Below are positions 17,310 through 35,345 of a DNA stretch of 64,000 nucleotides, piece by piece (positions within the stretch are counted from its first letter, which is position 1; every line of letters begins with the position of its first letter). Position numbers and translations under genes: made by a program. The notes under the pieces are model-generated. The model did not search any database, had not been told where the DNA came from, and was given only the letters and a program-made list of their open reading frames with translations. The DNA comes from Prosthecobacter sp. (GTDB taxonomy: Bacteria; Verrucomicrobiota; Verrucomicrobiia; Verrucomicrobiales; Verrucomicrobiaceae): contig NZ_JAGRPF010000135.1 in NCBI RefSeq assembly GCF_020439865.1, forward strand, positions 1 through 64,000, given 5' to 3'.

Positions 17310-20300
17310 TCACTGCGATTGCAGGCGGAAGAAGGCGGCGTTGTCCGGCACGGTGAATTGGAACTCCAACTGGCCGTTGCCGTTGACGGTGGTCTGCGGC
17401 GTGGTCATGGGGAATGGATCGAAGTTGGTCAGGTCGGTGCTCTTCTCCACGCCGATGGTCAGGGTGAAGACTCCGGTCGAGGCATTGCGCTGGATGAGCG
17501 GCGTGCCGATGTTCAGCGCCTGCACCTGCGAAGGTGTGTAGAGGCCGAAGGGATTTGGATTGCCGACCACGTTGTTCTGACCGGCGGTGTAATTCCCGTC
17601 ATACTGCGTCTGGTTGTAAAGGCCCGCCGCATTCGCGCCGCTGTTCAGCGCGGCCACGAGAGATGTCTGGCTGGTCTGCCAGTCAAAGCCGAGCGCGGAC
17701 AAAGAATACTCACCCCAGTCGTTCAGACCATCGTTGTCCGTGTCCAGCGTGGCAGAAAGCGCGAGGCCGGTGAGCGCGATGTCAAAGGTGTTTTCAAGCG
17801 CAGTTCCGTTCCCGATGTGAAGGGCGGATGTGCGTGCGCTTGAAGTCCCGGCAGGCGAAAAGGTGATGTCGAGAGTCGTGCTGTCACCAGGAGCCAGTGT
17901 GGCAGCCGTCCCCGTGGAATTCAGAACAAAGTCGGCGGCATTTGTGCCGTCCACCGTGATGGTGCCCACGGTCAGCGAGTACCAGCCCGTGTTCCGAAGA
18001 GTGAAGGTCTTGAGCGGTCCGGCAGCACCTATCCGCACTCCGCCGAAGTCAATGCTGGCGGAGCCATTCGCGAGAGCTGTGCCCACCGGTTCCTCCACCG
18101 TGATTCCTGGCAGCACCCCGTAGATGACGACGCTGTGATTGCCCTGATTGCTGAAAGAGAGTCCGCTGACCATCTGCCCGGCCAGCACGCTTGTTCCGCT
18201 GTCCGCATTCACCAGTGTCGGGGCATTGCGCTGCGTGACCACCGTGTTGTCTCCGATCTGGCCGAAGGAGTTGTCTCCCCATGCGGCGACTGTTCCGTCT
18301 GAACACAGCGCCAGGCTGTGCCGGAAACCTCCGGCAATGGCCACTACTGTCTTGTTGTACAGTGCGCTGGTCCCGCTGTCCACATTCACCGCCACCGGGG
18401 CGCTGCGTGGCGTCGTGGTATTGTCCCCGAGCTGGCCGAAACCATTGCTGCCCCATCCTGCCACGGTGCCATCAGAACACAGCGCCAGGCTATGACCGCC
18501 TGCGGCAATGGCTGTCACCGTCTTGCCATACAACGCGCTGGTCCCGTTGCTCGTGTTCACCAACACCGGGGCATGACGCTCGGCGGTCGTGGTGTCGCCG
18601 AGCTGACCGTTGACGTTGCCACCCCACGCTGCCACGGTTCCGTCCGAACATAGCGCCAGACTGTGGGCATTAGCCGCTACGATGGCGACCACCGTCTTGC
18701 CGTTCAGTGCGCTCGTTCCGCTGTCCACGTTCACCGCCACCGGGACATGACTCTCGGTGGTCGTGTTATCGCCCAGCCTGCCATTGGTGTTGTCTCCCCA
18801 CGCGACCACGGTTCCGTCCGAGCACAAGGCCAGGCTGTGAGTGGCACCTGCCGCGATGGCCACCACTGTCTTGCCGAACAGCGCACTGGTCCCGCTGTCC
18901 ACATTCACCGCCACCGGGGCAGAGCGATTGGTTGTCGTATTGTCCCCGAGCTTGCCATTGAGATTTTCTCCCCATGCCACCACGGCTCCGTCCGAACACA
19001 ATGCCAGGCTGTGTTTGGCACCTGCAGCGATGGCGACCACTGTCTTGCCAGACAGCGCGCTCGTCCCACTGTCCGTGTTCACGGCCACCGGAGAATGGCG
19101 TTCTGTTGTTGTGTTATCTCCGAGCCTGCCGGAGACGTTATTCCCCCACGCATACACTTTCCCGTCACTCGTGAGCGCCAGAGTGTGGCCAGCCCCCCGC
19201 GCCACCTGCACGATGATTTTGCCTGCCAGCACACCGGTCTGGGTCACTGCCACTGGCGCATTGTTCGATCCTCCAGACGTGCCGTTCCCGATCTGGCCGT
19301 CGTTGTTGTTGCCCCACGCGGCGAGCCCTGTGTAGGGCCACATCAGGACCAGGTCGTTGCCATCCCCGCCGTAATACCAGGCCACATAGGGATAGGTCAC
19401 CCCATTGAAACTGAGGCTCACCGTCGAACCATTGGACACATTGTTGAATTCACCGTTGATGAATCCGGTCCCGGTGTTCTTCACCACGGTCAGGTTGGTT
19501 CCTGCCGCAGGGGCAAAGTTCAGTGCCAGCGCTGCCGCTCCGGCTGGAGTGAAGCCGTTGCTGGTCACCGGCACGTCGGTTGCGCTGCCATACGTCCAGT
19601 CCAGCAGGCTTGTGCCGCGGATGGTGAACGTGAAGGGATCCTCGTTCGAATCATCATTCGGAACGCTCACCGTGGCGGTGTGAGCTCCGGCGGTGGTCGG
19701 ATCATAGGTGATCGTGAATGTTTTCGTCTGTCCATTGGCCAAAGTGCCTGAGGCTGGTTGTGCCGTGACGCTGAAGGCAGCCGCCCCTGAACCGCTGAGT
19801 GTCACGTAGTCGGGAGCAACACCCGTCAGAGAGAGTATGCCATCGCCTGTGTTGGAAAGGGTGAAGGTATGGGCCACCGCGCCTGCCGTGACGGCCATCG
19901 TTCCGAAATCCGTGTCGTCCGCCGTGGCGGGTGTGGTGTCCCCGCTGACGATGTCCGTTCCGTTTCCACTGATGGCGATTTCGGGTGCTGGCGCTGCCGC
20001 CACGAGCCCGAGGCTGTGAATGGCATTTGGGCCGCTGCGCACCATGGCAAAGGTTTCCCCGGTGGCCAGCCCCGAGGTGCTCACCGGCACCGGCACGTTG
20101 CTAGTAGTCGTTGTGTTGTCGCCGAGCTGGCCACTGCTGTTGAGCCCCCACGACACCGCCGAGCCGTCCGAGCACCATGCCAGGGTGTGATACTGGCCGG
20201 CAAACATCCCCACGACAGTCTTTCCGTTCAGCACGCCGCTGGTGTCCACCAAAACCGGCACCTTGCTGTCAACCGGCCCGGATTGGCCCAACTGCCCGTT

Positions 20301-22904
20301 GGCGTTTGCTCCCCAAGTCGCCAAGGTGCCATCCGAGCACAGCGCCACGCTGTGATTCAGGCCCGCCCGCAACGTGACCACCGTTTTCCCAGCCAGCACT
20401 CCTGTGGTGGTCGTCAGCACGGGCACACCGCTGTTCGCATAGGTGTTGTTGCCCAATTGACCATTGCCACCATTGCCCCATGCTGCCACCGCACCATCCG
20501 AGCACAAGGCCAGGCTGTGCAACTGTCCGGCGGCGATGGACACCACCGTCTTGCCGGAGAGCACCCCGCTGGTATTCACCGCCACCGGCACAAGGCTGTC
20601 GGTTCCCGTAGCGTTGTTGCCCAACTGACCGTAGTCATTCTGGCCCCATGCGGCCACCGTGCCGTCCGAACACAAGGCCATACTGTGCCCCTGTCCGGCG
20701 GCAATCGCGGTGATCGTTTTGCCACTGAGGATTCCACTGGTGTCCACCAGCACGGGTACGTCACGAGAGGTTGTTGTGTTGTCACCCAACTGGCCGCGAG
20801 AATTGCTGCCCCATGCCGTCAGCGTGCCATCCGAGCACAGGGCCAGGCTGTGACTTGTGCCAACCGCAATGGCCACGACGGTCTTGCCACTCAGCACGCC
20901 AGACCTGTCCACCAGCACCGGCACACTGCTATCGCTGGGAGAATGATTGCCCAGCTGTCCGCTGAAATTGGAACCCCATGCAGCGAGAGTGCCATCGGAG
21001 CACAACGCCAGACTGTGATTGGCCCCGGCCGCCATGCTGACGATGGTCTTCCCAGCCAGCACACCACTGCTGACCACATTCACGGAGGTGAGCCGCCCTA
21101 TTGTCGTGCCATCCCCCAGTTTCCCGTTGCTGTTGTCCCCCCAGGCCACCGGGCGCACGTTCTTCCACTGCAAGACCAGATCATTGCCCGTTCCGCCGTA
21201 GTAGTTGGCCACGAAGCGATACACCATCCCGTTGTAACCCATCACCACCTCCTGCCCCTGCGCCAGATTGCTGAAGGTTCCGCTGATGAACGCCGCTCCG
21301 GTGTTATTGACCACGGTCAGGCTCGTTCCTGCCACCGGTGCAAAGTTCAGTGCCAGCGTTGCGGCGCCGCTTGCGGTGAAACCATTGCTGGTCACCGGCA
21401 CGTCGGACGCAGAGTTGTAAGTTGAGACAAGGCCGGTTCCTTGGACGGTGAAAGTGAAGGGGCCCTCGTTCGCGTCGTCATTGGGAATGGTCACGTTGGC
21501 TGTCTGAACTCCGGCGGCGGTGGGATCGAAAGTGATGGTGAAGGTCTGTGTGCCCGCAGTGGCCACCGTTCCCGAAGCAGGCTGCGCCGTTACGCTAAAC
21601 GCGGAGGCGCCAGGCCCACTGAGCGTCACGTAGTTTGGCGCCGTTCCTGTCAGCGAGAGAAAGCCATCTCCCGAATTTGAAATGGTAAAGGTATGTGCCA
21701 CTGAACCGCCCGCGACAGGCACGCTGCCGAAGTCCGTGTCGTCCGCCGTGTCAGGCGTGCTGTCCCCGCTGACAATGTCCGTTCCATTGCCACTGACGGC
21801 GATTTCGGGAAGCAGCAGCATCCATTTCAGATCGCCATTGGTCACATCGTAGTAAGCGATGGCAGGCTGGTTGTTTACCACGGCTAGCGATGTAAACTGG
21901 CCTACATCGCCAACGGTATCGAGCGATTTGCCTGTCTGCCAACTGGTGCCGCTAGGGTCGTTGGAGCGGATGTATTTGAGGTTGCCGTTGTTTTGGTTGT
22001 AATAGCTGACAAAAGGCTTCCCGTTCACCACAGCCAGTGAAGTGTATTCGCCACCAGTGGTGTCGATCGCCGTCCCACCACTCCAACTGGTGCCATCGAC
22101 GTTGCTTGCTCGAATGAATTTGAGATTACCATTGGTCGGATTGTGGTAGCTGATGGCGGGGTTCCCGTTCACCACGGCCAGCGAAGTATATTGTCCACCA
22201 GTCGTGTCGATCGACGTTCCACCACTCCAACTGGTGCCATCGACGTTGCTTGCTCGAATGAATTTGAGATTACCATTGTTCGGATTGGAATAGCTGATGG
22301 CGGGGTTTCCGTTCACCACGGCCAGCGAGACGAACGCGCCGCCACTAATATCAATTGTAAGTGGTGCATTCCAACTGCCGCCACTTGCATCACTGGCCCG
22401 CACAAATTTGAGATCGACATTGTCCGCATCGAAATAACCGATCGCCGGGTTGCCATTAACCACGCAAAGAGAGGTAAACTGACCCACATCGCCAACTGAG
22501 TCGATCGTCACCGGCGTTCCCCAAGCGCTGCCATCGGCAGTGCTGGCCCGCACAAATTTGAGATCGCCATTGGTTACATCGTAGTAACTGATCGCCGGGT
22601 TGCCGTTGACCACGCAAAGCGAAGTATATTGACCCACGTCGCCGGCTGAAGCGACAGTCACCGGGGTTCCCCAAGTGCTGCCATCAGGAGTGCTGGCCCG
22701 CACAAACTTCAGATCGCCGTTGGTCACATCGTAGTAACTGATCGCCGGATTGCCATCGACGATCGCTTGAGAGCAATGGCTTCCGACATTTGAAGAAGTG
22801 CCATCCACGGCGATGGAAAAGTTGGATTGGGCCAGCCCGGAGGATGGGACCGCCAGAATGGCAACCACGAGCAGGAGAGAGAAGAATTGGAAGAGCTTGT
22901 TCAT
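17310..22904 (-). CDS. Giant secreted protein: seven-repeat propeller, two seven-repeat RCC1 propellers, choice-of-anchor-D domains
   Basis: 1864 residues from the ATG at 22904 (MNKLFQFFSLLLVVAILAVPSSGLAQ, a signal peptide). In order: seven 45-55-residue repeats built on VVNGNPAISYYDVTNGDLKF (about 35-365); an ASPM/SPD-2/Hydin-like choice-of-anchor-D domain (VTLSGPGASAFSVTAQP); a linker ending YYGGTGNDLVLQW; seven RCC1 repeats (AWGSNSRGQLGD, HSLALCSDGT); a second anchor-D domain and linker; seven more RCC1 repeats; a third anchor-D domain; and a C-terminal part with a DTDNDGLNDWGE calcium-type motif and a final beta domain. Each RCC1 blade has a cysteine in LALCSDG. An extracellular adhesive or binding role is likely; no enzyme motif is seen. 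It is downstream of the sigma factor gene on the same strand. Exact export route unknown. Confidence 0.85.
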   Translation of the reverse strand: MNKLFQFFSLLLVVAILAVPSSGLAQSNFSIAVDGTSSNVGSHCSQAIVDGNPAISYYDVTNGDLKFVRASTPDGSTWGTPVTVASAGDVGQYTSLCVVNGNPAISYYDVTNGDLKFVRASTADGSAWGTPVTIDSVGDVGQFTSLCVVNGNPAIGYFDADNVDLKFVRASDASGGSWNAPLTIDISGGAFVSLAVVNGNPAISYSNPNNGNLKFIRASNVDGTSWSGGTSIDTTGGQYTSLAVVNGNPAISYHNPTNGNLKFIRASNVDGTSWSGGTAIDTTGGEYTSLAVVNGKPFVSYYNQNNGNLKYIRSNDPSGTSWQTGKSLDTVGDVGQFTSLAVVNNQPAIAYYDVTNGDLKWMLLLPEIAVSGNGTDIVSGDSTPDTADDTDFGSVPVAGGSVAHTFTISNSGDGFLSLTGTAPNYVTLSGPGASAFSVTAQPASGTVATAGTQTFTITFDPTAAGVQTANVTIPNDDANEGPFTFTVQGTGLVSTYNSASDVPVTSNGFTASGAATLALNFAPVAGTSLTVVNNTGAAFISGTFSNLAQGQEVVMGYNGMVYRFVANYYGGTGNDLVLQWKNVRPVAWGDNSNGKLGDGTTIGRLTSVNVVSSGVLAGKTIVSMAAGANHSLALCSDGTLAAWGSNFSGQLGNHSPSDSSVPVLVDRSGVLSGKTVVAIAVGTSHSLALCSDGTLTAWGSNSRGQLGDNTTTSRDVPVLVDTSGILSGKTITAIAAGQGHSMALCSDGTVAAWGQNDYGQLGNNATGTDSLVPVAVNTSGVLSGKTVVSIAAGQLHSLALCSDGAVAAWGNGGNGQLGNNTYANSGVPVLTTTTGVLAGKTVVTLRAGLNHSVALCSDGTLATWGANANGQLGQSGPVDSKVPVLVDTSGVLNGKTVVGMFAGQYHTLAWCSDGSAVSWGLNSSGQLGDNTTTTSNVPVPVSTSGLATGETFAMVRSGPNAIHSLGLVAAAPAPEIAISGNGTDIVSGDTTPATADDTDFGTMAVTAGAVAHTFTLSNTGDGILSLTGVAPDYVTLSGSGAAAFSVTAQPASGTLANGQTKTFTITYDPTTAGAHTATVSVPNDDSNEDPFTFTIRGTSLLDWTYGSATDVPVTSNGFTPAGAAALALNFAPAAGTNLTVVKNTGTGFINGEFNNVSNGSTVSLSFNGVTYPYVAWYYGGDGNDLVLMWPYTGLAAWGNNNDGQIGNGTSGGSNNAPVAVTQTGVLAGKIIVQVARGAGHTLALTSDGKVYAWGNNVSGRLGDNTTTERHSPVAVNTDSGTSALSGKTVVAIAAGAKHSLALCSDGAVVAWGENLNGKLGDNTTTNRSAPVAVNVDSGTSALFGKTVVAIAAGATHSLALCSDGTVVAWGDNTNGRLGDNTTTESHVPVAVNVDSGTSALNGKTVVAIVAANAHSLALCSDGTVAAWGGNVNGQLGDTTTAERHAPVLVNTSNGTSALYGKTVTAIAAGGHSLALCSDGTVAGWGSNGFGQLGDNTTTPRSAPVAVNVDSGTSALYNKTVVAIAGGFRHSLALCSDGTVAAWGDNSFGQIGDNTVVTQRNAPTLVNADSGTSVLAGQMVSGLSFSNQGNHSVVIYGVLPGITVEEPVGTALANGSASIDFGGVRIGAAGPLKTFTLRNTGWYSLTVGTITVDGTNAADFVLNSTGTAATLAPGDSTTLDITFSPAGTSSARTSALHIGNGTALENTFDIALTGLALSATLDTDNDGLNDWGEYSLSALGFDWQTSQTSLVAALNSGANAAGLYNQTQYDGNYTAGQNNVVGNPNPFGLYTPSQVQALNIGTPLIQRNASTGVFTLTIGVEKSTDLTNFDPFPMTTPQTTVNGNGQLEFQFTVPDNAAFFRLQSQ
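22041..22328 (-). repeat. Tandem 144-bp repeat inside the giant propeller gene
   Basis: Two adjacent 144-base units, 22041-22184 and 22185-22328, are nearly identical; for example CTCCAACTGGTGCCATCGAC occurs at 22081 and again at 22225, within a run of about 60 almost unchanged bases. They encode repeats 4 and 5 of the N-terminal propeller (48 residues each). The similarity at base level, not only protein level, points to recent duplication or gene conversion. Confidence 0.8.
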
Positions 22905-23008
22905 GGGAAGGGCGGGATGTCGTCGGGCTCTACCCCGGCCATGCTGCTGCATTACAACCCTTCTCAACAAATCCCGTCCGATGCTCCACCCCAGCCTTGC
23001 CTCAGAGT

Positions 23009-28795: not shown

Positions 28796-30442
28796 ATGCG
28801 CCATCTTTTGCTCCTTCTCGTCTCCGTCGTATCCCTGCATTCGGCGGAACCTCCCAAACTCGATTTTGGAACCATCCGTGAAGAGCATCTCATGATTCCG
28901 ATGCGGGATGGCAAGCGTCTTTCCGCCTATGTCTTCTTTCCTCCGGGCGAGGGCAAATGGCCCGCCATTTTCGAACAGCGCTACGCGGACATCAGCAGCG
29001 CCGGATCGCGCAAGGCGGCGGCGAAGTTTGCCGAGGGCGGCTTCGTGATCGCACTGGTGAACTATCGCGGCACGCATGAAAGCGAAGGCGTTTATCGTGG
29101 TTACCGCGGCCTGCAATGGGGACCGCTGCGCGATGGCTATGATGTCTGTGAGTGGCTCGCCGCACAGCCGTGGTGCACAGGCAAGATCGGCACGTATGGC
29201 GGATCGCAGGCGGGCTATGCGCAGAATTATCTCGCAGTGACACAGCCGCCGCACCTCGTGGCGCAATACATGACTGACACGGGCCTGAGCCTGTATCAGG
29301 AAGGCTACCGCATCGGCGGTGCGACGAAGCCGCAGCGCTTCATCAAAGGCGGCGCGGTGGCACGCGACATCAAGGACAACGAAGCCATGCTGCGCGAGTG
29401 GGACCAGCATCCGAACTACGATGACTACTGGCGCGATGAAGACGCGTCGCTGCACTTTGACAAGATGAACTACCCCTGCTTCACCATCGGCAGTTGGTTT
29501 GATTTCATGTGCCAGGGCAGCGTGGCGAGTTTCATCGGGCGCAATCAATACGGAGGCCCCTCCTCACGCGGCCACCAGCAGCTCATCATCGGTCCGTGGC
29601 TGCATGGCGGCTATCCGAAGTCGAACAAGATCGGCGAGCTCGTGTTTCCGGAGAACGCAATATTCGACGTGTATGCGCACATGAAGAAGTGGTTCAATCA
29701 CCACCTCAAAGGCGAGAACAACGGTGTCGAGAAGGAAACACCCGTGCGCTACTACGTGATGGGAGCCACTGGAGAAGAAGGCGCGCCGGGCAATGTGTGG
29801 CGCGAGGAAAAAAACTTCCCGCCGCCGAGCACAGCATCGGATTGGTTCCTGCAGCCCGATGGCAAACTCGCCTCGAGCAAGGTATCCGCCACGAAGGCGA
29901 GCACCTCTTATCTGAGCGATCCCGCACATCCGATGAGCCTGCCGTACACGGGCTTCCCTGGCGCACGAGATGCTCGCGGGTTTGAAGAACAGGCCGAAGT
30001 GCGCACTTGGACAAGCGAGGTGCTCACGAAACCGGTTGAGGTGACCGGCCGCATCAAGGCGGAGGTCTTTGTATCCTCAACCGCCAAGGACACCGATTTC
30101 GTTCTGCGCGTCACGGACGTGTATCCTGACGGACGGTCCATGTTGCTCATGGATTACCCATTGCGTGCTCGCTACCACGAGGGCTTCGATCATCAAAAGC
30201 TGCTCGTGCCCGGAGAGGTCACCAAACTCGCCTGGGACATCGGCTGGACGAGCATCATTTTTAACAAAGGACATCGCATCCGCGTGACGATCGCCAGCAC
30301 GGGCGCACCCTTCTATGAACCGAATCCGCAGACCGGCGCGCCGATCAGTCATTTCATCACCGAGCCCGGCGTGGCGGCGATCAACACCATCTGGCACGAT
30401 GCTGCCCATGCCTCGCGCGTAATCCTGCCCGTAGTGAAATAA
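28796..30442 (+). CDS. CocE/NonD-family hydrolase (X-Pro dipeptidyl-peptidase S15 type), secreted
   Basis: 548 residues from the ATG at 28796, which starts a clear signal peptide (MRHLLLLLVSVVSLHSAE). The alpha/beta-hydrolase domain contains IPMRDGKRLSAYVFFP, the nucleophile elbow GTYGGSQAGY with the serine at about 137, and ADVSSAGS-like cap residues. The C-terminal jelly-roll domain (VTGRIKAEVFVSSTAKDTDFVLRVTDV, GHRIRVTIAS) is typical of cocaine esterase, glutaryl-7-ACA acylase and XPDAP. The substrate, an ester or amide, is unknown. The GTG at 28781 is an alternative start, five codons earlier. It follows the LysR gene and precedes a lactonase-like gene by 17 bases, suggesting cotranscription. 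Confidence 0.9.
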   Translation: MRHLLLLLVSVVSLHSAEPPKLDFGTIREEHLMIPMRDGKRLSAYVFFPPGEGKWPAIFEQRYADISSAGSRKAAAKFAEGGFVIALVNYRGTHESEGVYRGYRGLQWGPLRDGYDVCEWLAAQPWCTGKIGTYGGSQAGYAQNYLAVTQPPHLVAQYMTDTGLSLYQEGYRIGGATKPQRFIKGGAVARDIKDNEAMLREWDQHPNYDDYWRDEDASLHFDKMNYPCFTIGSWFDFMCQGSVASFIGRNQYGGPSSRGHQQLIIGPWLHGGYPKSNKIGELVFPENAIFDVYAHMKKWFNHHLKGENNGVEKETPVRYYVMGATGEEGAPGNVWREEKNFPPPSTASDWFLQPDGKLASSKVSATKASTSYLSDPAHPMSLPYTGFPGARDARGFEEQAEVRTWTSEVLTKPVEVTGRIKAEVFVSSTAKDTDFVLRVTDVYPDGRSMLLMDYPLRARYHEGFDHQKLLVPGEVTKLAWDIGWTSIIFNKGHRIRVTIASTGAPFYEPNPQTGAPISHFITEPGVAAINTIWHDAAHASRVILPVVK

Positions 30443-30459
30443 GCTGACACTTCCCTCTC

Positions 30460-31710
30460 ATGCCCCCTTCCTCTCATTCCCGCCGCATTTTTCTCCAAAC
30501 GCTCGTCGCATCAGCGATCAGCAGTCCATTGCTCGCAGCCACAGAACCCGGAGCGCTCATCGCCTATGTGGGGACCTACACCTCGCCGCTGCAAAACATG
30601 CGAAAAACCCAGGTGGATCTGCCGCCCGGGAACGGACGCGGCATTCATCTGTTTGAAGTGGACCGTGCCACCGGAGCAATGAAACCATGCGGACTGTTTG
30701 AAATGGGCACCAGCCCGAGCTGCCTCGCTTTCAGTCCTGACAAGAAACACCTCTATTCGGGCAACGAAACCGAGCGGATCGGCGACAATGAATCTGGAAC
30801 GGTGAGCGCTTTTGCCATCGATCCTCAAAGCGGCCAGTTGAAACTGCTGAACAGCGTCAGTTCAGAAGGCAAAGGTCCCGCGCACCTCAGCGTGCATCCG
30901 TCAGGAAAGTTCGTGCTCGTGGCGAACTACTTCGGCGGCACGGTGGCCGTGATTCCCATCCTTCCCGACGGCAGCCTCGGCCCCGCGAGCGATGTGAAAA
31001 AAGACGAAGGAACCTTGGGCCCCACCAAGGCCGCCCACGCACCTCCCGGCAGCTTTGCCATCAGTGGACATGATCAGGCCCATGCGCACATGATTGAAGC
31101 AGATCCGTCTGGAAAATTCGTTCTGCACTCAGACCTCGGACTGGATCAGATCTATCTTTGGAAATTCGACGAACAGACCGGCAAACTGACGGCAAACACT
31201 CCTGCGACGGTCTCACTGCCTCCCGGCGACGGCCCGCGACACTTCGCGTTCCATCCGAAGGGCACGTGGCTCTATTCTCTGCAGGAGGAAGGTTCCACGG
31301 TCGTCCTCTTCGATTACAACAACGCCAACGGACAACTCGCCGCCAGACAAACCCTGTCGAGCCTGCCGCCCGGATTTGCCGGCAGCAACTTCTGCTCCGA
31401 AATCATGGTCTCGCCCGATGGACGCTTTGTCTATGCGGGCAACCGACTGCACGACAGCATCGCCATCTTCTCCGTCGGTGAGGATGGAACACTGACTTTC
31501 CTCACTGAGGAATGGACGCGCGGCGACTATCCACGGAGCTTCAACTTCGATCCGAGCGGGCAATTCCTCTATGTCTGCAATCAGCGCGCCGACAACGTCG
31601 CGGCTTTCCGAGTCGATGCCAAAACAGGAACACTCGCATTCACGGGACACTTCACGCCTGTAGGAAACCCTTCGATCATCGTGTTCCGCGATCTCTCGCA
31701 GCAGAAATAG
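30460..31710 (+). CDS. Lactonase-family seven-bladed propeller (6-phosphogluconolactonase-like), exported
   Basis: 416 residues. The N-terminus SRRIFLQTLVASAISSPLLA is a twin-arginine-type signal peptide, so unlike E. coli Pgl this protein is probably exported and unlikely to serve the cytosolic pentose phosphate pathway. The propeller shows the family phrases AYVGTYTS, PSCLAFSPDKKHLYSGNE, GPAHLSVHPSGKFVLVANYFGGTVAV, DGPRHFAFHPKGTWLY and EWTRGDYPRSFNFDPSGQFLYVCNQ. Related lactonases include YbhE and muconate-cycloisomerase-like proteins. A role in hydrolysing sugar lactones in the periplasm is a reasonable inference. It is convergent with trpC with an 8-base gap. Confidence 0.9.
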   Translation: MPPSSHSRRIFLQTLVASAISSPLLAATEPGALIAYVGTYTSPLQNMRKTQVDLPPGNGRGIHLFEVDRATGAMKPCGLFEMGTSPSCLAFSPDKKHLYSGNETERIGDNESGTVSAFAIDPQSGQLKLLNSVSSEGKGPAHLSVHPSGKFVLVANYFGGTVAVIPILPDGSLGPASDVKKDEGTLGPTKAAHAPPGSFAISGHDQAHAHMIEADPSGKFVLHSDLGLDQIYLWKFDEQTGKLTANTPATVSLPPGDGPRHFAFHPKGTWLYSLQEEGSTVVLFDYNNANGQLAARQTLSSLPPGFAGSNFCSEIMVSPDGRFVYAGNRLHDSIAIFSVGEDGTLTFLTEEWTRGDYPRSFNFDPSGQFLYVCNQRADNVAAFRVDAKTGTLAFTGHFTPVGNPSIIVFRDLSQQK

Positions 31711-31718
31711 ACGGCGAA

Positions 31719-32513
31719 TCAATGAAACTGCTCCGGCACCGGGGCACGGTACTGCGGGAGATCGACGAGAATGTTCGGGCTGCGCATCAGCGTCTCGCCG
31801 ATCAGAAGCGCATTCGCTCCCGCTTCGGCAAGGCGATGGGCGTCGGCGGGCGTTTTGATTCCGCTTTCAGAAACGAGGACAACATCGTCCGGAACTTCTT
31901 CAGCGAGTTCTTCCGTGGTGGAGAGATCGACGGTGAAGCTCTTCAAGTTGCGATTGTTCACGCCGATGATACGGGCGTCTGTCGCGAGCGCACGTTCGAG
32001 TTCAGGCAGATTATGAACTTCAACAAGTGCGTCGACCTGGAAGGTCTGCGCCACCTCAAGCAGGTGCTCCAGCGTGGGTTGGTCGAGAGCCGCGACGATG
32101 AGCAGGATGGCATCCGCCCCCGCAACCACGGCCTCAAAGATCTGCGCCTCATGAATGATGAAGTCCTTGCGCAGGCAAGGGATGTCCACCTGCTCGCGAA
32201 TGAGGGAAAGGTATTCGAGTCGGCCTTGAAAATACTTTTCGTCCGTGAGCACGGAGATGGCGCTGGCGCCCGCCTTCTCGTAGCCGCGGGCAATGGTCAG
32301 CGGATCAAAGTCGGCGGCAATCGTTCCGGCTGAAGGCGAAGCGCGCTTGACCTCGGCGATGATGCTGAGACGCGTCGGATCGTTGCGCAATGCGTCGTAA
32401 AAGGAGCGTACATCATCACGCAACGCGGCGGCGGCGCGGAGCTTTTCGGCGCGGGGCAGCAGGCGTTGCAGTTCGGTGTGCTTGTGGGCGATGATTTCGT
32501 CCAGCTTGTTCAT
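31719..32513 (-). CDS. trpC: Indole-3-glycerol phosphate synthase
   Basis: 264 residues, the standard length of a monofunctional IGPS (EC 4.1.1.48), which closes the indole ring in tryptophan synthesis. Catalytic-type segments are present: SIIAEVKRASPSAG with the lysine near 54, VLTDEKYFQG, LRKDFIIHEAQI with the catalytic lysine, DALVEVHN, IGVNNRNLKSFTVD and VSESGIKTPADA. It stands alone, with no other trp gene in the window. The ATG at 32513 follows a C-rich leader. Confidence 0.97.
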   Translation of the reverse strand: MNKLDEIIAHKHTELQRLLPRAEKLRAAAALRDDVRSFYDALRNDPTRLSIIAEVKRASPSAGTIAADFDPLTIARGYEKAGASAISVLTDEKYFQGRLEYLSLIREQVDIPCLRKDFIIHEAQIFEAVVAGADAILLIVAALDQPTLEHLLEVAQTFQVDALVEVHNLPELERALATDARIIGVNNRNLKSFTVDLSTTEELAEEVPDDVVLVSESGIKTPADAHRLAEAGANALLIGETLMRSPNILVDLPQYRAPVPEQFH

Positions 32514-32596
32514 GGGGCGCGCATGGAATCCAGATGACAGGTCAAATCCAATGGGAAGATTGTTTTCACGGTCGTCTCTCAGACCTGTAGGCCAGC

Positions 32597-33442
32597 TTAA
32601 ACACTCAGATCAAATGCCTCGAATACGTTCCGGTGCTTCAACGGCATGCTCATCCGCGGCCGGTCCTGAATCATATTGTAGGTAATACCTTTGGCGAAGC
32701 CAAGTTCGTGAATGTGATCGGCAAAGACATGGCCACGCCTGATGAAGCGGTCCAAGACTTCCATGGAGCGGTATCTCGCATCGGCCAGAATGTCGATCGG
32801 TCCCTTCACTGTCTCCACGCATTTCAGATGGTCGCCGGTCGGGTAAACTTTCGCCAGAGGACCATCGACAAAGATGAAGCTGTAAGGCCTGTAAGGAGTG
32901 TCCCTGTAGGAGTGGGTGGGAACGTCCCCTCTCCAACGGTCGGCAACGACTGGCGACAAATGGAAGGTGATGAACTGCCTCTGCTTCTCAGGCAGGATTG
33001 ACTGGGTGTTCTTGAGGGGCTTTTCAATGCTCTCCATTGACTGGATATGACCATCATAGGAGGGATCCTCCTGCTGGTTAAGCCAGAGCGCATGGCTCAT
33101 GAAAATGGATGTAACCCCGCTCCCCAACTCCAAAACGTGCTCGGGTTTGTGACGGCGCAGGTATCTGTGCAACAAATAGTATTCCGTCAGCGGGACCCCG
33201 CCGCTGATAGATTTCCCGGGAATGGCAAGCAGTTCACGGTTTTCATCCAAATTAAAGTAGTCCAGGGCGATTTTCGCCATTCTGGCTTCCTCGGCTTTGG
33301 CCTCTTCAGGCTTGGGAAGCAAATACGACCGGTCCCACTTTGCCCGAATTTTGCTGATCTTCCTGCCGATTGAGTTGAAGAATTTGGGAAGTCCCCGCTT
33401 CTCACCGTTCTCATACGGCCATAGTAATGTAGTGATGCTCAT
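32597..33442 (-). CDS. Class I SAM-dependent methyltransferase-like protein, function unknown
   Basis: 281 residues with no signal peptide. The only clear signature is the Rossmann glycine motif HVLELGSGVTSIFMS at about residues 102-116, with an acidic SMESIEK segment after it and SFIFVDGPLAKVYPTG around 190-205. This suggests an S-adenosylmethionine-binding fold like that of small O- or N-methyltransferases. By eye the coding DNA is less GC-rich than its neighbours, which may indicate transfer. It has a good promoter in the 232-base gap it shares with the divergent ACP gene, so it may belong to that locus. No specific substrate can be named. Confidence 0.7.
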   Translation of the reverse strand: MSITTLLWPYENGEKRGLPKFFNSIGRKISKIRAKWDRSYLLPKPEEAKAEEARMAKIALDYFNLDENRELLAIPGKSISGGVPLTEYYLLHRYLRRHKPEHVLELGSGVTSIFMSHALWLNQQEDPSYDGHIQSMESIEKPLKNTQSILPEKQRQFITFHLSPVVADRWRGDVPTHSYRDTPYRPYSFIFVDGPLAKVYPTGDHLKCVETVKGPIDILADARYRSMEVLDRFIRRGHVFADHIHELGFAKGITYNMIQDRPRMSMPLKHRNVFEAFDLSV

Positions 33443-33507
33443 CTGATGACGTCGAAATTTGAAACTCGTAGTTACGACCTTTTTTCTCGGCCGCCGCGAG
33501 GGCGCTT

Positions 33508-33536
33508 TCTCTAATAACCGACCAAGGCAAAGTCAA
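33508..33536 (-). promoter_or_regulatory. Sigma-70-type promoter for the methyltransferase-like gene
   Basis: On the minus strand TTGACT (33536-33531) is followed after exactly 17 bases by TAGAGA (33513-33508). The -35 matches five of six consensus bases. The start codon is about 65 bases downstream. Confidence 0.6.
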
Positions 33537-33674
33537 TGTGTTAAGTCGTGCCCAATTGGCTGGCAGGAAGACGGGACGTTACCGCCCGACCGCGCACGTG
33601 TTCCGATGATGCAAAATACGCATACAGGGCTTTCTTGACGACAGGCTTGATGCAGGCTCTTTCCACTGAAGAAA

Positions 33675-33935
33675 ATGCCCGAAGTCCCCATCACACCAGA
33701 AGCCGTGATCGAACTGCTCACCTCCGAGCATATTCTCGAACCCCAGGAGCCGATCCTTCCCGAGACCGATCTCTTCACGCTTGGACTGGATTCGATGGCA
33801 ATGATGCAGCTGTTGTTGCAAATCGAGCAGCGCTTTCAACTCACCGTCAATCCGTCGGAAATGACCCGTGAGCGCTTCGCCACCGCCGGTTCCCTGGCCA
33901 CGTTCCTGAGGGAAAAACGACGTCTCGCCGCCTGA
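33675..33935 (+). CDS. Stand-alone acyl/peptidyl carrier protein
   Basis: 86 residues with the fold and length of an acyl carrier protein. The phosphopantetheine attachment serine is S40 in LFTLGLDSMAMMQLLLQIE, close to the usual LGxDS pattern. DSM rather than DSL is common in carrier proteins of nonribosomal or polyketide type. It overlaps the next gene (TGATG), so it is translationally coupled to the condensation-type acyltransferase, its probable partner. No fatty-acid synthase, adenylation or ketosynthase gene is adjacent, which argues against a housekeeping AcpP. The ATG at 33675 follows GAAGAAA. Confidence 0.9.
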   Translation: MPEVPITPEAVIELLTSEHILEPQEPILPETDLFTLGLDSMAMMQLLLQIEQRFQLTVNPSEMTRERFATAGSLATFLREKRRLAA

Positions 33936-35224
33936 TGCTGACGTTGCCCGCCACCACGGTCGATTATTTCCTCGCCGGGCTTGAGTCCTTCATGCGCCGC
34001 AGCGGGCAGGATACGCATTGGGGTGTGACAGTTTTGAAGCTGGAGGGCAAACCCGACGCCGACTTGCTGGCGCGAGTCTGGGAGCAGATCCACGCGCACC
34101 ATCCAATGCTGGGAGCACGGTTGAAACGTGTGTGGCGCGGCTGGCGGCTGGCCTGGGAAAGTCAGGGGACAGTTCCCGCGCCTGCAATCACGTGGCATCC
34201 AACGCAATCAGTGCCGCCCGACAAGAACATCCTCCGTGAGCGGTTTCAAGGCCAGGTCGGATCCAAGCCCCTTCGTTCCCCCTTGTTGATGGAGGTCTTT
34301 CCGTTCGGCGACCATGACCAACATGTCATTCTGCTGACATGGCGACACGCGCTGCTCGATGGCACGGGCATCAATCTGCTGCTGGAAAAAATGGCGTCAG
34401 GCGATGCCAGCGCAGGCCCGCCAGAACCTGCGCCACCAAAACGCCACAGAATGAGAGACGTGTTCCAACGAGCCCGGCCTCTGATGAAACGCCTGCATGC
34501 CATGACCAGCGCCGGCTGTCTGTCCGCCTGGGCCAAGGGGGGGGCGAAGGGCGGTGCGCCCGATTTTCATGTGATCGAATTCTCCCAAGAGCAGTCGGAA
34601 AGAGCTGCAGTTCGTCTGCGCACCGCGTGCGGCGACTTTTTGCAGATGCCTTTTTATGCAGCGGTCGCTGCGCGTGCTCTACGACTGCTGCATGAGAGGC
34701 GCGGATGGCACAGTCCCCAGATCCATCTGCAACTGCCTTTCCAGTCCCGCGGCCGCAGCCGCGACCTGCTGTTCGGCAATCATACTGGGACTCTGCCGTT
34801 GTTTCTCGACGCCGGAGCTCTTGGTACGCTTGAGGAAGCCGTGAGTCATCTGCTCGAGAGGTACCGCGAGGCGATGAGAGAAGAGATGCCGAAGGCATCG
34901 GAAGCCCTGATGACCTTGGCGGCCCACCTGCCGGTCGGTTGGTTCATCCCAGCCGTCCGTCTGTCCAACTGCGGCCAGATTTGCAGCCTCTTTCATTCCC
35001 ATACCGGTTCTTTTCTGCCGGGGCGTGGCGAGTTCGCCGGAGCACCGGTTCAGAACGTTTACAACATTCCCAACGTGTGTTCCCCACCGGGCTTGGGAAT
35101 CTTTTTCTCCGACTTTGCCGGACGAATTACTCTCACCCTTTCGTGGCGGAGAGGTTCGGTCTCCCCCGAGGAGGTGGAGACCGTGAACCAAAAGATCCAG
35201 GAGGATCTGACCGGAGGGCGATAA
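33935..35224 (+). CDS. Condensation-domain-type (WS/DGAT, PapA-like) acyltransferase
   Basis: 429 residues, the size of one NRPS condensation domain or a wax-ester-synthase/PapA-type acyltransferase. The catalytic motif HxxxDG is present as WRHALLDGTG, with H138 and D142. The first histidine of the classical HHxxxDG is arginine. Other family-like parts are the N-terminal VTVLKLEGKPDADLLARVWEQI segment with HHPMLGARL, and a C-terminal NVYNIPNVCSPPGLGIFFSDFAGRITLTL. Such enzymes transfer an acyl group from a carrier protein or CoA to an amine or hydroxyl. The start overlaps the ACP stop. No signal peptide or membrane span is seen. Product unknown. Confidence 0.82.
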   Translation: MLTLPATTVDYFLAGLESFMRRSGQDTHWGVTVLKLEGKPDADLLARVWEQIHAHHPMLGARLKRVWRGWRLAWESQGTVPAPAITWHPTQSVPPDKNILRERFQGQVGSKPLRSPLLMEVFPFGDHDQHVILLTWRHALLDGTGINLLLEKMASGDASAGPPEPAPPKRHRMRDVFQRARPLMKRLHAMTSAGCLSAWAKGGAKGGAPDFHVIEFSQEQSERAAVRLRTACGDFLQMPFYAAVAARALRLLHERRGWHSPQIHLQLPFQSRGRSRDLLFGNHTGTLPLFLDAGALGTLEEAVSHLLERYREAMREEMPKASEALMTLAAHLPVGWFIPAVRLSNCGQICSLFHSHTGSFLPGRGEFAGAPVQNVYNIPNVCSPPGLGIFFSDFAGRITLTLSWRRGSVSPEEVETVNQKIQEDLTGGR

Positions 35225-35252
35225 GAATCGGGCCCGTATAAGTGGATACGAA

Positions 35253-35345
35253 GTGCCAGGGAACCGCGACATGAGCAGGCAGGCTGCCGTTGCTTCCGTC
35301 AGGACCTGGCGGGGTTCGCAAGCTGAACATCCGCGGCCCCTGACG
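35253..35345 (-). ncRNA. ffs: Bacterial signal recognition particle RNA, small (4.5S) type
   Basis: Read on the minus strand, this stretch carries the SRP RNA core GCCAGGTCCTGACGGAAGCA followed by ACGGCAGC, which corresponds to the conserved apical helix 8 (AGGUCxxGGAAGGAAGCAGCC-like). The flanks fold into the expected rod: GTCAGGG (from 35344) pairs with CCCTGGC (to 35255), CCGCG with CGCGG, and GAACC with GGTTC. The RNA scaffolds Ffh in cotranslational targeting of membrane and secreted proteins. Ends are approximate to a few bases. It lies between, and convergent with, the acyltransferase gene, and is divergent from the coiled-coil operon. Confidence 0.88.

Follow-up and report, generated by a model that had tools for sequence, protein, structure and literature searches.

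In the chlorinated beta-tyrosine branch of C-1027, the work is divided among SgcC1 (A), SgcC2 (PCP), the flavin halogenase SgcC3, and the condensation enzyme SgcC5. SgcC5 is a free-standing, ester-forming condensation enzyme (PMC12304814), and the substrate of SgcC3 is a tethered acyl group (PMC8407142). Dependence on a carrier also marks the "variant B" flavin halogenases PltA, Mpy16, and CndH; CmlS belongs to variant A and acts on free substrates (PMC8407142). A further combination, found in aryl-polyene and xanthomonadin clusters, comprises an acyl carrier protein (ACP), a hydroxybenzoate-type AMP ligase, and a halogenase (PMC3949708).

We analyzed a 64,000-nucleotide stretch of DNA (the window), which is part (contig C67) of a 6.17-Mb draft genome (G000), and compared it with other genomes of the genus. 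The window carries an ACP gene followed by a gene for a stand-alone condensation-superfamily acyltransferase (C). Judging from these comparisons, ACP and C probably form the carrier/transferase half of a four-protein, carrier-tethered tailoring system that is split over two loci. The support in the data consists of conservation, purifying selection, perfect co-occurrence, repeated joint loss, and relatives in which the parts lie in a single operon or are fused. Literature searches returned no description of this system. The original prediction had treated the pair as a minimal pathway; a self-contained one is not supported, and the pair appears to be one half of a four-protein system that includes a halogenase-like enzyme.

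The ACP-C gene pair next to trpC

The ACP gene (33675..33935, plus strand) encodes an 86-amino-acid protein, predicted to be a dedicated acyl or aryl carrier. Its score against PF00550 (45.8 bits; cut-off, 20.8) qualifies it as a carrier protein by the Pfam criterion, and the serine predicted to bear 4'-phosphopantetheine is S40 (codon 33792-33794). The intact DSM site anticipated earlier is there as GLDSM, which is present in 17 of the 17 trpC-linked ACPs of the genus. One match to the phosphopantetheinyl transferase (PPTase) family (PF01648) was found in the window's genome. The ACP stop codon and the C start codon share the sequence TGATG (33933-33937), and this coupling, also predicted, recurs unchanged in all 12 orthologous loci in which both genes were read.

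C (33935..35224, plus strand; 429 amino acids) is supported by orthologs and by a family profile. Its predicted catalytic motif is HALLDG (34346..34363, plus strand), lying within WRHALLDG; residues H138, D142, and G143 do not vary among 12 orthologs or among 18 wider family members. In terms of the HHxxxDG signature, the second (catalytic) His, the Asp, and the Gly are invariant, and the first His is replaced by Arg in the window and by Ser in paralogs. As a single sequence, C scores 16.1 bits against Pfam Condensation, below the cut-off of 30.6. A profile built from 18 C-family members, with the motif aligned, matches structures of the NRPS condensation superfamily; the best match is bacitracin synthase 3 (E = 1.6e-6), with further matches to C domains of other NRPSs. 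On the strength of this profile, the C family is a divergent member of the condensation-domain superfamily with a predicted PF00668-like fold. The enzyme had been described as a condensation/WS-DGAT-type acyltransferase with HxxxDG; the condensation half of that description holds, but the WS/DGAT assignment (TIGR02946) fails at 23.1 bits against a cut-off of 309.95. An AlphaFold model of C, built from four sequences, was too poor for fold reading (pLDDT, 50.9).

The gene trpC (31719..32513, minus strand; PF00218, 308 bits), encoding indole-3-glycerol phosphate synthase, appears by its position to be the conserved anchor of the locus. At every orthologous locus read, about 110 bp separate trpC from the start of the divergent ACP gene, and C starts 260 bp past the ACP start. 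Gene order is largely shared among these loci over the block LysR-trpC-ACP-C-two coiled-coil proteins-hisI-AsmA-ABC. C has orthologs in 12 other congeners (59 to 71% identity), so that, counting the window, 13 of 48 congeneric genomes keep the ACP-C pair, each time in divergent orientation to trpC. The trpC-linked ACP is kept more widely (17/48) and faces trpC directly, with an insertion in the window as the one exception. Both genes are under purifying selection, with dN/dS (omega) between close pairs at 0.13 to 0.22 for C and 0.09 to 0.25 for ACP. The conservation in relatives on which the original prediction hung is thus borne out, and we read the ACP-C pair as a working unit rather than a remnant.

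Between trpC and hisI, neither the window nor the orthologous loci showed an adenylation, ketosynthase (KS), thioesterase (TE), or multimodular synthetase gene, and no PPTase gene lies at the locus. The interval does not amount to a complete cluster, in line with the earlier view that this is not a standard NRPS or PKS. A bacterial small SRP RNA (35251..35345, minus strand; RF00169, 52.4 bits) forms the downstream boundary of C. It lies between C and the coiled-coil genes, and its sequence is kept in relatives from which C has been deleted. Searches with defense and phage libraries gave no match. Elsewhere in the window, a 1,886-amino-acid open reading frame (ORF; 17310-22970, minus strand) contains imperfect tandem repeats of about 144 to 174 bp.

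Candidate partner genes and the joint loss of C and the halogenase

A paralogous cluster on another contig of the same genome (C128) has the order ACP-C-FAD oxidoreductase-AMP ligase-flavin halogenase-like gene-CAAX protease (locus L042, 9317-15613; the CAAX protease exceeds the pepcterm_CAAX cut-off). The standalone AMP ligase (81 to 88% identical) occurs in 17 of 48 congeners, which are exactly those with a trpC-linked ACP, and the halogenase-like gene adjoining it (76 to 90% identity) occurs in exactly 13, those with a trpC-linked C. The search for a loading enzyme elsewhere in the genome, proposed at the outset, has therefore yielded a candidate whose co-occurrence with the carrier is perfect. 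On C128, the ligase gene spans 30186-31553 and the halogenase-like gene 31564-32850. The ligase is of the acyl-CoA-synthetase type and is nearest to feruloyl-CoA synthetase. The halogenase-like enzyme scores 99.8 bits against PF04820, and the GxGxxG and WxWxIP motifs of flavin-dependent halogenases are invariant in 13 aligned sequences. Its nearest solved relatives are mostly flavin-dependent halogenases, including PltA, Mpy16 (5buk), and CndH; CmlS, of the free-substrate variant A, is also among the matches and counts against the proposed scheme.

A second ACP-C pair lies at the ligase locus in six of the 13 genomes that carry the window pair, the window's own among them. With two pairs in this genome, the trpC-linked one may have a partly separate role from that at C128. 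We also considered that it might have arisen by recent duplication of the C128 pair, an origin rejected by the C tree, which places it nearer to C enzymes from operons of another family. In seven genomes (G021, G022, G027, G033, G034, G037, and G042), the ligase-halogenase locus contains no ACP or C and no other C occurs in the genome, which leaves them with the trpC-linked pair alone.

The same gene set is found in more compact arrangements. In other genomes of the order, ACP, C, ligase, and halogenase form one operon at two loci (L110 and L045), and a third (L111) is the same without a separately called ACP. In another family of the order, C, ligase, and halogenase lie together in G244 and G312, with a called ACP in G244 as well. 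An ACP-C fusion, the ligase, and the halogenase stand in a row in G024, and such a fusion adjoins the halogenase in G039 and G040. Outside the order, C accompanies the ligase in most loci, and no halogenase of this type was found beside C in those families. Homologous pairs thus sit in small ACP-C-ligase operons and not only in complete NRPS clusters, which answers the neighborhood check proposed originally. ACP-C fusions of about 565 to 590 amino acids, mostly without an adjacent ligase, were also seen at L061 to L066, one of which (L062) is flanked by RNA 3'-phosphate cyclase-like and phosphofructokinase-like genes.

In another clade of the genus (loci L169 to L172 and L186), a flavin halogenase homolog, not ACP-C, is directly divergent from trpC. 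The trpC-adjacent gene in G013, G014, G017, G018, and G046 is a halogenase of the matching type. The spacer next to trpC therefore carries parts of the system in both clades.

Four genomes (G032, G041, G047, and G048) have kept the trpC-linked ACP and the ligase and have lost both C and the halogenase. At the trpC locus, G032 retains a clear remnant of C, G041 and G047 have shorter traces that are less certain, and G048 has none; the breakpoints differ. In the same genomes, the halogenase has been deleted between the ligase and the CAAX gene, again with differing breakpoints; short remnants of the gene start are left and, in G032, also of the end. These four genomes are scattered in a tree of rpoB and trpC and form no clade. 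ACPs retained without C are still selected (omega of 0.09 to 0.15 versus their nearest relatives). The persistence of ACP and ligase without C would imply a second use of the loaded carrier. One further genome nested in the clade (G055) is without C, halogenase, ligase, and ACP, and its trpC directly faces the coiled-coil gene.

Of the 45 tree genomes, 30 have C together with a halogenase of a matching type, and 15 have neither. By parsimony, 12 losses of C and halogenase coincide across the genus, a count that rests on the rpoB+trpC tree, in which some tips are placed by one gene alone (e.g., trpC) and some nodes are weak. In a correlated-evolution test, the dependent model was better than the independent one (LR = 55.2; P = 3e-11). 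The halogenase types that were counted form clades of their own; a third type, found whether or not C is present, groups apart from them. One genome breaks the pattern: G035, fragmented and outside the tree, has C, but no matching halogenase type was found in it. The tree of C agrees with that of the halogenase (r = 0.97; partial r = 0.97 after controlling for the species tree), a correlation that is partly selected, as the matching type was chosen where a genome holds several halogenase copies. Most of the genomes are drafts, and incompleteness may account for some absences, though not for losses seen where the locus is intact. Taken together, these patterns link ligase, carrier, flavin halogenase, and condensation enzyme, each a separate protein, as an evolutionary set. 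Such co-occurrence shows a shared pathway, not the order of reactions.

Proposed pathway and alternative explanations

In the mechanism that we propose, the AMP ligase encoded at C128 would activate a carboxylic acid, tentatively a probably aromatic one, and load it onto the ACP of the window. The flavin-dependent-halogenase-like enzyme would then modify the carrier-bound acyl group, most likely by halogenation rather than by another oxidation. Finally, C would transfer the acyl group from the carrier to an acceptor, presumably an amine or alcohol. That the pair receives an acyl group made elsewhere and passes it on had been predicted; the co-occurrence of a candidate ligase with the carrier supports this, and the acceptor is presumed. 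The product of the Verrucomicrobia studied here is thus probably a small acyl compound, carrier-bound and possibly halogenated, that has hitherto been undescribed. A more far-reaching version, which we consider evenly balanced between right and wrong, is that Verrucomicrobiales make a halogenated acyl conjugate via a dispersed set, in which the carrier-ligase half has its own function and the C-halogenase half is repeatedly discarded.

It is unlikely, though it is the alternative that survives best, that the four proteins cooperate without giving a halogenated product, with the FAD enzyme hydroxylating or oxidizing the tethered acyl group or with C using CoA or other thioesters like WS/DGAT enzymes. 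Among NCBIfam models, the FAD enzyme scores highest with the monooxygenase QhpG (112.7 bits, short of the cut-off of 240), whose relatives are hydroxylases and count against halogenation, and the weak WS/DGAT match of C points the same way. However, the WxWxIP motif, invariant in 13 of 13 aligned sequences, has been described as blocking monooxygenation (PMC8407142), and the nearest PDB chains are mostly those of halogenases. A CoA donor is disfavored by the ACP-C fusions and the ACP-C gene overlap, both of which favor acyl-ACP.

Quite unlikely, too, is that the system is an aryl-polyene/flexirubin offshoot that still tailors a pigment made elsewhere in the genome. Distant C homologs do occur, at several loci, in aryl-polyene-like clusters beside a ligase, ketosynthases, an ApeP-like dehydratase, and GT2 and LpxL-like genes, and a halogenase, an ACP, and a hydroxybenzoate AMP ligase also occur in xanthomonadin-type clusters (PMC3949708). 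At neither locus in the genus, however, were ketosynthase or polyene genes seen.

We regard as very improbable the pathway first envisaged, in which ACP and the condensation enzyme suffice and the divergent gene methylates the product. The geometry was correctly described: a methyltransferase-like ORF of 281 amino acids (32597..33442, minus strand) and ACP are divergent, 232 bp apart. Also in favor, the ORF has a weak paralog on contig C127 of the same genome, where an AMP ligase and an ACP are its neighbors. However, the ORF matches no methyltransferase in Pfam, NCBIfam, or PDB, its resemblance to such enzymes being only an LELGSG-like stretch, and none of the 47 congeners, among them the 12 that have the pair, yielded an ortholog, which largely refutes a role in the pathway. 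The only other matches in the genus are two weak paralogs (about 30% identity), and the one at C127 sits in a surface-polysaccharide-like locus. The ORF has a lower GC content than its flanks and interrupts the ancestral trpC-ACP spacer, which at other orthologous loci is without any such ORF. Nor did the 232-bp spacer contain a plus-strand sigma-70-like site, contrary to the strong promoter once suggested. We judge the ORF, found only in this genome, to be a lineage-specific insertion outside the ACP-C system, and product methylation is dropped from the scheme. The C127 locus (L237), probably devoted to surface glycan, also holds NeuB-like, AMP ligase, 78-amino-acid carrier protein, GNAT-like, and sulfotransferase-like genes.

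Least probable of all is that ACP and C are left over, as decayed or selfish genes, from an NRPS/PKS cluster. In favor, no synthetase lies nearby and, beyond the genus, the nearest homologs belong to complete operons, but purifying selection on both genes (omega of 0.1 to 0.25), with intact motifs and an invariant overlap, rules out a decayed NRPS remnant, and true decay, visible in four relatives, looks different.

The split four-protein system has consequences for discovery. Neighbor-based genome mining would probably miss the pathway because its parts lie at separate loci and C does not reach the cut-offs of Pfam and NCBIfam. Even without an experiment, the parts are tied together by their repeated joint loss, which also predicts the proteins that should be combined in vitro. 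The pathway points to a halogenated or oxidized small molecule in a little-explored phylum.

Comparison with described systems

With the aryl-polyene and xanthomonadin clusters, the system shares ACP, AMP ligase, and halogenase, as well as the occurrence of distant C homologs within such clusters, but the loci studied in the genus have no ketosynthase or chain elongation. The halogenase-like enzyme has GxGxxG and WxWxIP in common with PltA, Mpy16, and CndH, which are among its nearest solved sequences, whereas the partner carrier of the putative halogenase is encoded at a separate locus. C resembles VibH and other stand-alone NRPS condensation enzymes in its free-standing form, its predicted condensation fold, its HxxxDG motif, and its presumed carrier-bound acyl substrate. 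It differs from the VibH type in having Arg or Ser for the first His of HHxxxDG, no NRPS partner, and a score below the Pfam cut-off. Likened by component roles, the closest counterpart is C-1027, with its standalone activation enzyme, standalone carrier, flavin halogenase acting on a tethered acyl group, and free-standing condensation enzyme. The system described here has no enediyne and no NRPS context, occupies two loci in another phylum, and has other partner genes and an acyl-CoA-synthetase-type ligase. In our analysis, its overall logic nevertheless resembles that of SgcC1, SgcC2, SgcC3, and SgcC5.
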